Shown piece by piece: positions 39,777 through 43,945 of a stretch of DNA of 64,000 nt. This DNA comes from Bartonella bacilliformis Ver097 (GTDB taxonomy: Bacteria > Pseudomonadota > Alphaproteobacteria > Rhizobiales > Rhizobiaceae). Each line of letters starts with the position of its first letter. The first letter of the stretch is position 1. The translations under genes were made by a program, and so were the position numbers. A model generated the notes under the pieces. That model was given only the letters and a program-made list of their open reading frames with translations. It searched no databases and was not told where the DNA came from. The stretch lies in NCBI RefSeq assembly GCF_000709795.1, contig NZ_KL503803.1:248001-312000 (forward strand). Reading direction: 5' to 3'.

Positions 39777-39916
39777 TAGTTTTTTCGATCATTTAGCAGA
39801 AATTTCAAACTGCATTCTAAATAAAAAATATAATTGTCTGAAGGGCATCACGTGACAATGTGGTGCCCTTAGTGTATCGAAAACAAAAAAGTAATGTGCT
39901 TTTTGGGAGATTATAT

Positions 39917-40636
39917 ATGACATTAGCTCTTCGATATAAACGTGTTTTGTTAAAAGTATCTGGTGAAGCACTTATGGGAGAACAAAGTTTTGGAATTGAT
40001 GTTTCAGTTGCAGACCGTATTGCTTCTGATATTGCTGACGTGCGAAAAATGGGTGTGGAAGTCGCTATTGTAATAGGTGGTGGTAATATTTTTCGTGGGG
40101 TTGCTGTTGCTTCGCGTGGTGGCGACCGTGTAACTGGTGATCATATGGGAATGCTTGCAACAGCTATCAATTCTCTGGCGTTGCGAACATCATTGACGAA
40201 GCTAGGTATTGAAACGGTTGTACTCTCTGCAATTGCCATGCCACAAATATGCGAAAGTTTTTCTCAGCGTAAGGCAATGAGCTATATGGAACAAGGAAAA
40301 GTTGTTATTTTTGCAGGTGGTACAGGTAATCCATTTTTTACTACTGATTCTGCTGCTACTTTACGGGCAGCAGAAATTTGTGCGGATGTTTTATTGAAAG
40401 GAACACAAGTAGACGGTATTTATTCTGCTGATCCAAAGATAAATTCTACCGCTAAACGTTTTAATCAACTAACGCATGTTGAAATTTTACGATTAGGATT
40501 GTCTATTATGGATACGACAGCAGTAACTTTAGCACGTGAAAATAATATACCGATTATTGTATATTCCATTCATGAAAAAGGTGGTCTGGCTAAGGTGTTA
40601 AATGGGACAGGGCGGTTTACAGTAGTATCACAATAA
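39917..40636 (+). CDS. pyrH: Uridylate kinase (UMP kinase)
   Basis: This 239-residue bacterial UMP kinase of the amino-acid kinase fold makes UDP. Landmarks are KRVLLKVSGEALMG (ATP site), VIGGGNIFRG, GTGNPFFTTDSAA (UMP site) and KGTQVDGIYSADP. I chose ATG 39917 with gggaga upstream rather than the GTG at 39860. It begins the pyrH-frr pair. Confidence 0.96.
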   Translation: MTLALRYKRVLLKVSGEALMGEQSFGIDVSVADRIASDIADVRKMGVEVAIVIGGGNIFRGVAVASRGGDRVTGDHMGMLATAINSLALRTSLTKLGIETVVLSAIAMPQICESFSQRKAMSYMEQGKVVIFAGGTGNPFFTTDSAATLRAAEICADVLLKGTQVDGIYSADPKINSTAKRFNQLTHVEILRLGLSIMDTTAVTLARENNIPIIVYSIHEKGGLAKVLNGTGRFTVVSQ

Positions 40637-40672: not shown

Positions 40673-41233
40673 ATGAGTGTTACATCAATTATGAATGATC
40701 TGAAACGTCGGATGGATGGTTCTATTTCGGCTTTTAAACACGAGTTAAGTGGTTTGAGGACTGGGCGAGCATCGGCTAGCTTGTTGGAGCCATTGACTGT
40801 TGAAGCTTATGGTTCTGTTGTCCCTATAAAACAGGTAGCAAATATTTCTGTTCCAGAGCCGCGGATGCTTTCAGTTTCTGTATGGGATAAAACGATGGTA
40901 GGAGCTGTGGAGCGTGCTATTCGTGATTGTGGTTTTGGTTTAAATCCCATTGCTGATGGTATGAATTTACGTATTCCTTTGCCTGAATTGAATGAAGAAC
41001 GCCGTAAAGAGTTGGTAAAAATCGCGCATCAATATGCAGAGCAGGCTCGTGTTGCCACTCGCCATGTTCGTCGTGATGGTATGGATAATTTAAAAAAATT
41101 AGAAAAAGAAGGCGAAATTAGCCAAGATGAGGTTCGTAGTTTATCTGAAAAAGTTCAAAAACTCACAGATGACGCTATTGCTGACATTGATAAAATTTTA
41201 ATTATGAAAGAAACCGAAATTATGCAGGTTTAA
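40673..41233 (+). CDS. frr: Ribosome recycling factor
   Basis: This 186-residue factor splits post-termination ribosomes together with EF-G. It has [18 protein letters not shown] at the start of the long helical domain, [16 protein letters not shown] in the beta domain, and [13 protein letters not shown] in the return helix. A strong aaggaggc ribosome binding site precedes it. Confidence 0.97.
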
Positions 41234-41259
41234 GATTTTTTTATCCTTAAAAAAGGTGT

Positions 41260-41665
41260 TGTATCTACGTTGTCTCGTCTGATTATGAATTAGGACCGTG
41301 CAATTTAGTGTATAATTTCTTTATTAATATAAGGTATATTATTTTGCATTATACTGTGTATTATACGAGAAAGACTAGTTTGGATTGATCAGTACTTTTT
41401 CCTTTTAAAAAATATTTAATGAGATTTAGTTAATTAAAAAGATTTTTAAAGTTTTTTGTTAAACTGTACAGTAAGGAAATTCATATTTGTTCTATTGGCA
41501 ATCATCAGGTATCCTGAGGTTATTTCAGCAGCGTTAGTAGATGTAAAGATATGATGTCTTGTAATGGCACTTTAACTTATCATTTTATTTAATTATAAAG
41601 GGTATAATTAACCAGTTGAGCAACTTTTGCTTCGTGCAATGATTTTTTATCTTCTGAATAATCGT
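41260..41665 (+). pseudogene. uppS: Undecaprenyl diphosphate synthase remnant
   Basis: uppS normally lies between frr and cdsA. Here only scattered UppS-like blocks in three frames remain. LKRFLKFF and KEIHICSIGNHQ (from 41434) match the LxxF...RxxIIGD region. After one in-frame TGA, MMSCNGTLT (41551-41577) matches LTxxNxxLT. LIILFNYKG, one frame on (FNY at 41588), matches the AxNYGGR block. QLSNFCFVQ (41613-41639, third frame) matches the RxSNFLLWQ block. SRLIMN near 41273 may be the start of the IMDGNGRWA block. About 45 residues, including the expected RTxGE motif, are gone. The call rests on the ordered blocks and the locus. Confidence 0.7.
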
Positions 41666-41973
41666 GAGTATTTTTCGGTAATAAAAAATATTTAGATATA
41701 AAAATGCTAAATCTTGATTGCATTGTTAATATAAACGGTAAATAGCATTTTGAGCTTACTTTTATAGTAAGCCACAGAGTCTGATCATTATATTTCATAA
41801 TGTTTTGAGTTACATTTTGATTGAATAAACCTTTGGAGTGACAATAATTAATTATTGGATTGTTGTGATAAGTCTAAATAAAGTTACAGAGGTATAACTG
41901 TAAAAACAGTGTATAGCAGATTTTGTTTTTGCAATTAGTTTTTGCCTTTTTGGTTATGTTTGGAGATATAACT

Positions 41974-42792
41974 TTGTCTAACCTTTTTTTGCGCATTCTT
42001 ACAGCTTTTGTTTTTGGCACTATTACTTTATGCTTAACATGGTTTGGAGGAGCTTTATTTTTCTTATTTATATGGGGAATTGGAGGTTTTATCCTATATG
42101 AGTGGATTACGATCACTAAAGATAAATGGAGCTTTTTACAAAAAATATTGGCAGGTGTTTTTTATTTTGTTTTTTGTATATTCTTATTATTAGGCACATC
42201 CGCTCTGTTAATTTTTGGTATTTTGATAGCTTTAGCAGTATTTTTGGGTAGTGTTGGACTCTTCAAAAATATTGGCTGGGTTTTGTGTGGTTTTCTTTAC
42301 GCATCTTTGCCTGTTGTATCTTTGTCTTTTTTACGAGGTTATGAGATATTAGGGCTTCGGATGGTTATTTTTTTATTTATGATAGTATGGGGAACAGATA
42401 TTGCCGCGTATTTTATTGGTCGCGCGTTTGGTGGCCCTAAATTAGCACCAAAATTTTCTCCTAATAAAACATGGTCCGGAGCTATAGGTGGTACCCTAGT
42501 TGGAGTTTCTGGTGGTGTATTTGTTGTCTTTTTTGTTTTTGACATGGGCCAAATAACTATTATTGTACCATTATTGGCTTTAATTATATCAATTATTTCA
42601 CAAATTAGTGATTTAGGCCAATCGTGGTTGAAGAGGCGATTTTCTGTTAAAGATTCTGGTTATTTTTTACCTGGACATGGTGGGTTCATGGATCGTATGG
42701 ATGGGTTAGTTGGTGCTGCTTTTATGCTTTATTTAATCAGTTCTTTTATGTCTGGTCTGAATACACCTTTTAATTTCTTTTATATGATTTAG
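41974..42792 (+). CDS. cdsA: Phosphatidate cytidylyltransferase
   Basis: This 272-residue, eight- to nine-span membrane enzyme makes CDP-diacylglycerol, the precursor of phosphatidylglycerol and other phospholipids. The CDP-alcohol synthase signature is complete near the C-terminus: SWLKRRFSVKDSGYFLPGHG followed by GFMDRMD. I chose the TTG start at 41974 because ggag lies eight bases before it and SNLFLRILTAF fits the family's short N-terminus. ATG 41956 and TTG 41923 are in-frame alternatives. It sits between the decayed uppS and the decayed rseP yet shows no damage. Confidence 0.9.
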   Translation: MSNLFLRILTAFVFGTITLCLTWFGGALFFLFIWGIGGFILYEWITITKDKWSFLQKILAGVFYFVFCIFLLLGTSALLIFGILIALAVFLGSVGLFKNIGWVLCGFLYASLPVVSLSFLRGYEILGLRMVIFLFMIVWGTDIAAYFIGRAFGGPKLAPKFSPNKTWSGAIGGTLVGVSGGVFVVFFVFDMGQITIIVPLLALIISIISQISDLGQSWLKRRFSVKDSGYFLPGHGGFMDRMDGLVGAAFMLYLISSFMSGLNTPFNFFYMI

Positions 42793-42800
42793 TGGGGGCA

Positions 42801-43945
42801 ATGTTTTGGAATTTTTAAATCATATCCTTAGTGGAGTTGAGGCACTTTGGAGAGACTTTGGTATTGTCTTTATCATTATGGTTATTATTTTTGTTCACGA
42901 GATAGGACATTATCTTGTTGGACGATAGTGCGGTATTAAAACATCGTTTCTCGCTTGGATTCGGACCATCTATACTGAATTATACAAACAAACATGGCAC
43001 ACGGTGGTGTTTAGGATTAATTCTTTTTGAAGGATATGTAAAATTTATCAATGATCAGGATGGGATCAGTATGCTGTCGCCAGAATCATCATCGTTGATG
43101 CATGGTTGATTTGCTGGCGTTCGTGCTTGAAAAGGGCTTCTACCGTTTTTGCTGGTCCTTTATTCAATATTCTTTTTAGTATTATTATTTAACGTTTTTT
43201 TCTTTTCTCATGGGCGCGTAACCATTGAGCTTGGAGTTGGTTCTTTGGAAAAAGATTCTCCTGCTGTTCAGGCAGGTTTGATATTAGGCGATCGTTTTAT
43301 TGAAATGAATGGTAAAAGAGTTAAAAGTTTTGAAAATTTAGTAACATATGTGACTTTTCATAGTGGAGATCGCATAAAATTTAAAATGGAGTGCATGGGA
43401 AGAGTGTTTAGTACGGTGATTACATCGATAGTGACAGAAAAAGATGATGGATTTGGCAATCAAGTTCGGGTTGGCATGATTGGTGTGGGTGTACCTGTTG
43501 ATCCAGGTAACTCCACGCGTTTAGATCAAACTTATAAGAAATATATTCACTATAATTTCTTGGAAGCAATGGAAGAAGCATTAGAGCGTACAACACTGAT
43601 TGTCACGCGAACGTTTTTTATTGGCCGTTTAATAAAAGGACAAGGAAATCTTTGTCAATTAAGTGATCCTTCGAAGACTATTAAAATTGCTTGGCAAATT
43701 AATGAAAAGGTTTTTTCTCTTTTGAATTTTGCAGCTTTTTTTTGGTTAGTATTGATCTCATTAACCTTTTTCCGATTTCTCCGCTTGATGGCGGACACTT
43801 ATTACTTTATATTATTGAAGTTATTGTTGGAAAGCCAGTACCAGCTAAAATTCAGGAAGTTATTTTCCATATAGATCTATTTATTGTTTGCGCATTTATG
43901 ATTTTTGCGCTCTTTAATGATTATTTTTGTTGGTTTAGCTATTAA
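42801..43945 (+). pseudogene. rseP: Site-2 intramembrane zinc metalloprotease remnant
   Basis: The locus (after cdsA, before bamA) and sequence identify RseP. The zinc motif HEIGHY is readable, but it is followed three residues later by TAG (42926-42928), where a Trp codon is expected. After a shift comes FSLGFGPSILNYTNKHGTRW, with stops at the SFAG and AWKR blocks. Another shift opens a long piece (about 43149-43740) with the PDZ region (GSLEKDSPAVQAGLILGDRF). A last shift gives INLFPISPLDGGH, the second zinc-site motif. At least five lesions exclude a working protein from this copy. RseP normally cleaves anti-sigma factors and signal-peptide remnants. Confidence 0.93.

Follow-up and report, generated by a model that had tools for sequence, protein, structure and literature searches.

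Undecaprenyl diphosphate synthase (UppS) has been pursued as an antibiotic target. The mycobacterial members of its family, the cis-prenyltransferases of PF01255, make C50 carriers. A 2025 review (PMC12826051) regards the polyprenyl phosphate carrier as near-universal and virtually every step of its synthesis as essential, and reports that UppS-depleted cells lyse. A survey of intracellular bacteria, likewise represented by an excerpt (PMC5814848), places uppS in almost all peptidoglycan-positive genomes except those of the mycobacteria.

The mycobacteria, too, build peptidoglycan, and their genomes are reported to lack the KEGG orthologue of uppS (PMC5814848). They differ by the PF01255 enzymes mentioned above, whereas in the UppS-less Bartonella no PF01255 member was found; their C50 carrier is stated in the review (PMC12826051). 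Paracoccus denitrificans also has a non-standard carrier, C45-P instead of C55 (PMC12826051, excerpts). For that organism, however, a prenyltransferase is cited (in a title), while the UppS-less Bartonella miss the known family. A further likeness concerns the MEP pathway, in which Bartonella and Brucella have DXR-II in place of DXR-I and thus likewise use an alternative enzyme at an essential isoprenoid step (PMC3847144). There, in contrast to a possible replacement of UppS, the alternative enzyme is known. Finally, the locus described here has the anatomy of pseudogenes left by reductive evolution (stops, indels, falling GC and kept synteny). Unlike in the usual case, the lost gene is present throughout the sampled phylum outside the genus, and its pathway is retained.

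Excerpts of target-prediction papers on Bartonella mention UppP, MurG or MurE (PMC7416641, PMC11118080). No statement that Bartonella lacks uppS was found in the open-licence papers searched. Essential-gene and drug-target lists made by homology for Bartonella should be read with the uppS gap in mind.

The interval between frr and cdsA

The window, i.e. the whole stretch of 64,000 nucleotides analysed from B. bacilliformis Ver097, has the gene order rpsB-tsf-pyrH-frr-gap-cdsA-(broken rseP)-bamA-lpxD-fabZ-lpxA. Most of these names are our own assignments from the translations; those of frr and cdsA were confirmed by Pfam. The gap is flanked by these two intact neighbors, both on the forward strand: frr, encoding the ribosome recycling factor (41,233 being its last position, from 40,673; PF01765, 3.7e-62), and cdsA, encoding phosphatidate cytidylyltransferase (41,974 to 42,792, start approximate; PF01148, 1.8e-50). 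Upstream, also on the forward strand, lies the syntenic gene that we take from its place to be pyrH, for uridylate kinase (39,917 to 40,636, start approximate; 39,860 to 40,636 in the list of open reading frames). Downstream of cdsA, and serving as context only, follows a forward-strand remnant of the site-2 protease gene rseP with stops and frame changes (42,807 to 43,945, ends approximate).

The position between frr and cdsA is the canonical one, as uppS occupies it in all 14 uppS-bearing Bartonella loci (L001 to L014). In the window the corresponding gap is about 740 bases long, with a GC content of about 27% (measured over 41,231 to 41,922). Its longest forward open frame encodes 45 residues, far from the length of a UppS (about 240 to 260). 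The sole listed frame of at least 50 residues that lies wholly within the gap is on the reverse strand (69 residues, 41,589 to 41,798). When its three forward translations, with X for stops, were put through an ordinary Pfam search, PF01255 was not found, and a profile built from Bartonella UppS proteins gave no match to the relic at E values up to 10. The blank Pfam scan indicates a relic too decayed for an ordinary search.

Frameshift-tolerant local alignment gave a different picture. Compared with the UppS of the nearest uppS-bearing relative (L013, genome G006, presumably B. australis), the gap scored 103, against a mean of 31.9 (sd 3.6) and a maximum of 47 in 200 dinucleotide shuffles. 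The reverse strand of the gap scored 35. A repeat run returned 103 again, with a maximum of 45 in 40 shuffles. In the alignment to the intact gene, 16 indels appear to change the frame and 5 keep it. Among five intact genes aligned in the same way as controls, three were free of frame-changing indels and the others (L014 and L001) had one each, near position 700, where the C-termini diverge. The segment on the forward strand from 41,234 to 41,973 is a dead uppS, heavily decayed and filling the gap.

The first-pass annotation, which had proposed a decayed uppS at this place from scattered blocks of similarity, is thereby borne out. Three of the quoted blocks, IHICSIGNHQ, MMSCNGTLT and FNYKG, do fit the UppS segments IHVIGDRSS, MTRNNDGL and FSYGG. 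The fourth, QLSNFCFVQ, does not represent the UppS motif RFSNFLLWQ; it aligns to SRAVRCLAQ instead, and the true counterpart of the motif lies near 41,740 to 41,770. The extent given for the relic (41,260 to 41,665) was too narrow, as the relic spans the whole gap from about 41,234 to 41,973.

The window sequence contains no N. In the sister genome G007, which we take to be B. bacilliformis KC583 and which is the nearest among the genomes compared (frr 97% identical), the gap is equally broken, with a longest forward frame of 43 residues, so that an assembly error of one genome does not account for it. The two gaps are 91.8% identical over 734 aligned bases (frr 95.7%, cdsA 94.8%), which indicates that the decay is common to both. 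A functional RNA in the gap was also considered; the only match, to mir-454 (E 0.037), was below the cut-off and is put down to chance.

Distribution and number of uppS losses

The genome to which the window belongs (1,394,706 bases or 1.39 Mb in 6 contigs, rated 100% complete) has no match to PF01255, while all 14 control genomes do. No other cis-prenyltransferase is thus detectable in it by sequence. The first-pass annotation had raised the possibility of a second UppS or cis-prenyltransferase elsewhere in the genome. Such a copy is excluded as far as a sequence search in assemblies, on which the absence of uppS rests, can exclude it: neither PF01255 nor the Bartonella UppS profile (E up to 10) found one. 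Besides such a copy, the annotation had suggested a diverged replacement or an unusual wall biology; what is left is a replacement, whether diverged or of non-homologous origin, or else a carrier of an unusual kind.

Across the genus PF01255 was found in 15 of 71 genomes (14 of the 67 good ones), in 14 cases as one open frame and in G013 as two pieces. It is missing from the other 56 (53 of 67), 11 of which are single contigs. One of the 56, G062, may merely miss the gene: it is 85% complete and its other genes resemble those of a B. apis relative. The wider samples, which overlap, place this loss in contrast with the surroundings of the genus. In the order sample PF01255 is present in 294 of 297 genomes (294 of 295 outside the genus), the misses being our genome, G014 (also of this genus) and G189, an assembly of 270 contigs with 95% completeness. 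In the phylum sample it is present in 393 of 396 genomes and in all 393 outside the genus; the three misses (our genome, G014 and G028) all belong to Bartonella.

The UppS profile, made from five intact Bartonella proteins, was searched in 24 genomes (E up to 10), 20 of them UppS-less. Only broken or very short pieces directly behind frr, nearly all with stops, were found in 8 of the 20, and no match in the other 12, ours included. From the remaining four genomes uppS was recovered, in G013 as two pieces. A second, named collection gave a similar result. Among its best 80 of 332 loci, the nearest named relatives of the window are Bartonella species, and 45 Bartonella loci contain both frr and cdsA. 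Nine of these have an intact frame of 243 to 263 residues in the gap and 36 do not. One of the 36, L039, does have a 172-residue frame, where the gap was measured to a cdsA match starting at residue 126. In 30 chosen UppS-less genomes of the genus, partly the same as the named loci, the gap is always there, with forward frames of at most 89 residues; one of them is G022, presumably B. henselae Houston-1. The same loss is thus apparent in most genomes of the genus, including all but two of the placeable eubartonellae, the blood-borne Bartonella clade. The genomes named in the comparisons include strains A05 (G047), F02 (G046) and WD12.1 (G040), B. tamiae (G063), B. apihabitans (G003) and B. rochalimae (G036).

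Two loci show the gene or its relic in a particular state. In G013 (L015/L016, G013:C1:1136182-1136897), a 2.9-Mb genome of the B. apis group, uppS consists of two well-conserved pieces in different frames, which reflects either a very recent loss or a sequencing error. In the clarridgeiae/rochalimae group (L048 to L051, L166, L168, L170, L172, L173) the gap has shrunk to about 415 to 460 bases with 20 to 25% GC, and in the aligned loci L049, L050 and L173 about 360 bases have been deleted from the front of the relic.

The strength of the relic signal varies widely, from 399 in A05 (L017), through about 280 to 340 in the melophagi/WD12.1 group, to 103 to 105 in the window and G007. Of 67 relic rows, in which some genomes occur twice, 43 scored above their own shuffle maximum (20 shuffles each, 200 for the window) and 24 did not; L051 and L172 have equal scores and yet fall on opposite sides of this line. 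For the 24 gaps without a signal above the shuffles, the loss rests on absence and synteny.

Lesions were compared in an alignment of 19 relic rows, out of 67, with 6 intact rows. None of the frame-changing lesions in these 19 occurs in all four of A05, the melophagi group, lineage 4 and the window pair. The melophagi group and the window pair, though not all of their members, have in common apparent insertions at reference positions 197, 489 and 491, of which the one at 489 also occurs in L033, L049 and L173. A 1-base deletion at 418 is found in the window pair, in L050 and in all nine aligned rows of lineage 4. The only lesion that A05 shares is a 1-base deletion at 163, with L149. This pattern is compatible with a single loss behind the window pair and the melophagi group, and with an independent one in A05.

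G006 and F02, which belong to the same clade as the losers, keep an intact uppS. The identity between these two genes is 0.87, 0.90 and 0.61 at codon positions 1, 2 and 3, so both look constrained. In a 60-row FastTree of loci with at least 8 of 11 genes, from which both A05 loci (L017, L178) were left out, F02 is sister to lineage 4 and G006 diverges basally within the clade. An IQ-TREE of 38 of these rows, also without A05, needs two changes of the uppS label, while a single clade of losers is not rejected (AU p 0.253). The 15-row tree, built from 15 genes, includes A05 but without its lpxD. Here A05 and F02 are sisters (bootstrap 92, SH-aLRT 97) and three changes are needed; none (0%) of 200 bootstrap trees needs only one, and a single losers' clade is marginally rejected (AU p 0.041). 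On the other hand, the starred branches of this tree alone force at most one change, and three of its rows, one of them in the ingroup, fail the composition test. Both AU tests used LG+G4 without a mixture model. Taken together, a repeated loss of uppS is probable rather than proven.

The retained lipid cycle and the prenyl synthases

The other parts of the lipid cycle are in place: MraY, MurG, the lipid II flippase and a carrier phosphatase are present where the PF01255 carrier synthase is missing. MraY was found in every genome but G062 (70 of 71, and 67 of 67 good ones) and MurJ in all 71, in two of them as two pieces. The phosphatase PAP2 is likewise present in 71 of 71; for the PAP2 of our genome the nearest NCBIfam models are undecaprenyl-diphosphate phosphatases, well below their cut-offs, and PAP2 is likely the carrier phosphatase. 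MurG was seen in our own cluster and in 14 compared genomes. In that cluster, rsmH, ftsI, murE, murF, mraY, murD, ftsW, murG, murC and murB are all open frames; we assigned these names from the translations, and those of mraY and murG were confirmed. An open frame for an mtgA-like transglycosylase, just below its cut-off, adjoins the FPP synthase gene, next to which also lies what is presumably ispG. The predicted MraY, MurJ and PAP2 have thus been kept while uppS was lost.

The two divided murJ genes, each as two overlapping pieces (G042:C1:328012-329348 and G021:C2:1661327-1662633), both occur in UppS-less genomes. BacA/UppP (PF02673) was considered as a clue and set aside, since it is present in 1 of 71 genomes, so that its absence extends over nearly the whole genus and bears no relation to uppS; the sole case is B. 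tamiae (L131, G063:C1:880534-881283). Weak PF00953 matches near PAP2, in open frames of 325 to 341 residues, raised the possibility of a further MraY/WecA-like gene, which was rejected as well. In our genome this neighbor is a 326-residue membrane protein, which we take to be a DUF2232-type protein beside rplI.

The trans-prenyl synthases (PF00348) are represented by two matches per genome in 68 of 71 genomes, with extra fragments in three. Our genome has one FPP-type synthase, above the NCBIfam FPPsyn cut-off, and one long-chain trans synthase, without any extra copy. The latter is nearest to the octaprenyl diphosphate synthase model, below its cut-off, and among solved structures it matches octa- and decaprenyl synthases best. 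The idea that UppS-less species carry an additional intact trans-prenyl synthase could be discarded, as the surplus in G001, G022 and G050 consists of fragments covering 64 to 104 profile positions. These are partial copies of the 3' half of the FPP synthase gene, most with stops, close behind the intact gene (G022:C1:1752501-1753291; G001:C1:788268-788456; G050:C83:65754-66065). An FPP synthase turned long-chain was rejected too, because the short-chain signature, a Tyr five positions before the first Asp-rich motif, is kept in 14 of 14 genomes. We assume here that the bulky residue at this position is the chain-length site.

Signs of adaptation to another carrier were sought in MraY, MurG, FtsW, MurD and the two trans synthases, by comparing five uppS-bearing with nine UppS-less genomes. 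No site in any of these proteins is fixed in the five and absent from the nine. Less strict sites, distinguishing just the two eubartonellae with uppS from every loser, number two in MurG and one in MurD. Stops inside the aligned matches (ftsW in 5 of 14, the long-chain synthase in 3 of 14, the FPP synthase in 1 of 14) were taken for over-long starts. Our MraY aligns over nearly its full length with the solved MraY structures, and eight sites, mostly conservative, set the eubartonellae apart from three others.

Possible carrier sources and other envelope genes at the locus

The machinery that uses the carrier is kept and the sole known kind of enzyme for making it is lost, which calls for a UppS-independent source if the wall is built. 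It is very probable that uppS has been lost and that such a source is needed, whichever the route. With good though somewhat lower probability, this peptidoglycan-building clade obtains its wall carrier without a cis-prenyltransferase of the known family, i.e. from a new synthase, from host polyprenyl phosphate or as an all-trans lipid. Any of these three routes, if true, would be a first as far as the literature searched. A pathogen genus with the lipid II genes but without UppS breaks the rule of essential carrier synthesis, and it offers a natural experiment, with close relatives that have or lack uppS and two uppS-bearers within the same clade.

UppS would have become dispensable in the eubartonella ancestor, a UppS-independent source of polyprenyl phosphate being already there, and the lineages would then have dropped uppS, probably more than once. 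If repeated loss is true, the bypass predates the losses and may exist in the uppS-keeping relatives as well. As its source, an unrecognised enzyme unrelated to PF01255 is favored, which would use the retained FPP and IPP to make a cis carrier of the ordinary kind. It is preferred since no adaptation of MraY to another lipid is seen. The choice is a tentative and weakly held one, drawn from an absence, and it heads a ranking in which host polyprenyl phosphate comes second and a trans carrier third, with only a slight chance left to other routes. If the replacement enzyme exists, it would represent a new enzyme family.

Scavenging from the host, where a polyprenyl phosphate such as dolichyl phosphate would be taken up from blood, host cells or vector to serve as carrier, is rather unlikely. 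It would agree with the trees, in which all losses fall among the eubartonellae and uppS is kept by the B. apis group (by G013 in two frames) and by B. tamiae, and with relics of differing apparent age, as for a niche-supplied product. Against it stands the constancy of MraY, as dolichol is alpha-saturated and longer. Free dolichol would also need another kinase: the DgkA-type kinase (PF01219) occurs in 13 of 71 genomes, namely the 15 with PF01255 minus G006 and F02, and in none of the 56 UppS-less ones, which argues mildly against scavenging of the free alcohol. Furthermore, all eight phylum-sample genomes of at most 1.2 Mb retain PF01255. That an external carrier can be used at all is suggested by Staphylococcus aureus, in which exogenous Und-P suppressed sequestration lethality according to an excerpt of the review (PMC12826051). 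A host-derived carrier would extend host dependence to the cell wall itself.

An all-trans carrier is less likely again. Octa- or decaprenyl diphosphate from the ubiquinone-side trans synthase would be dephosphorylated by PAP2 and used by MraY; both the source, as the only long-chain polyprenyl diphosphate synthase found in our genome, and PAP2, as a genus-wide enzyme, are at hand. However, long-chain trans synthases are general in bacteria that retain uppS, and PF00348 is present in 14 of 14 control genomes. Neither MraY, MurG and FtsW nor the trans synthases show a change correlated with UppS loss. MraY is canonical when compared with the solved structures, and most of the sites that are specific to the eubartonellae are conservative in it, a constancy that speaks mildly against the all-trans lipid.

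The loss of uppS in the course of abandoning or minimizing peptidoglycan is improbable. Other envelope decay in some genomes (rseP; lpxD, lpxA, lpxI and lpxB in A05; the split murJ in 2 of 71) would be in line with it, as would the lysis of UppS-depleted E. coli and the essentiality of virtually every Und-P step in the excerpted review (PMC12826051), but mraY is intact and 83 to 98% identical to ours in 13 compared genomes, MraY is present in every good genome, and our mur/fts cluster and mtgA-like gene are open. Least probable of all is an artefact, with an intact uppS elsewhere missed through masking, assembly gaps or divergence: our assembly is in 6 contigs and G062 is incomplete, but 56 of 71 genomes, 11 of them single-contig, are without the gene, the sensitive profile finds relics only, and 36 of the 45 named Bartonella loci (9 intact) among the best 80 of 332 have a broken gap.

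Further envelope genes near the gap are also damaged in places. Besides the window (42,807 to 43,945) and G007 (L174), in both of which rseP is broken, stops or breaks in this gene are found in six further loci: L018, L032, L040, L050, L181 and L183. L050 and L181 are from the same genome, and L032 and L040 have only one stop each. The gene is in one frame in 53 of 61 loci, in which some genomes occur twice. In Bartonella sp. A05 (L017, L178) lpxD has decayed, only traces of lpxA are left, and lpxI and lpxB were not found beside fabZ, where they usually lie, the locus being the region searched; this strain may thus be without ordinary lipid A. The remaining loci have complete lpxD and lpxI genes and, save for one stop in L020, a complete lpxA; their lpxB is either whole or a long partial match, taken as cut by the end of the stretch.
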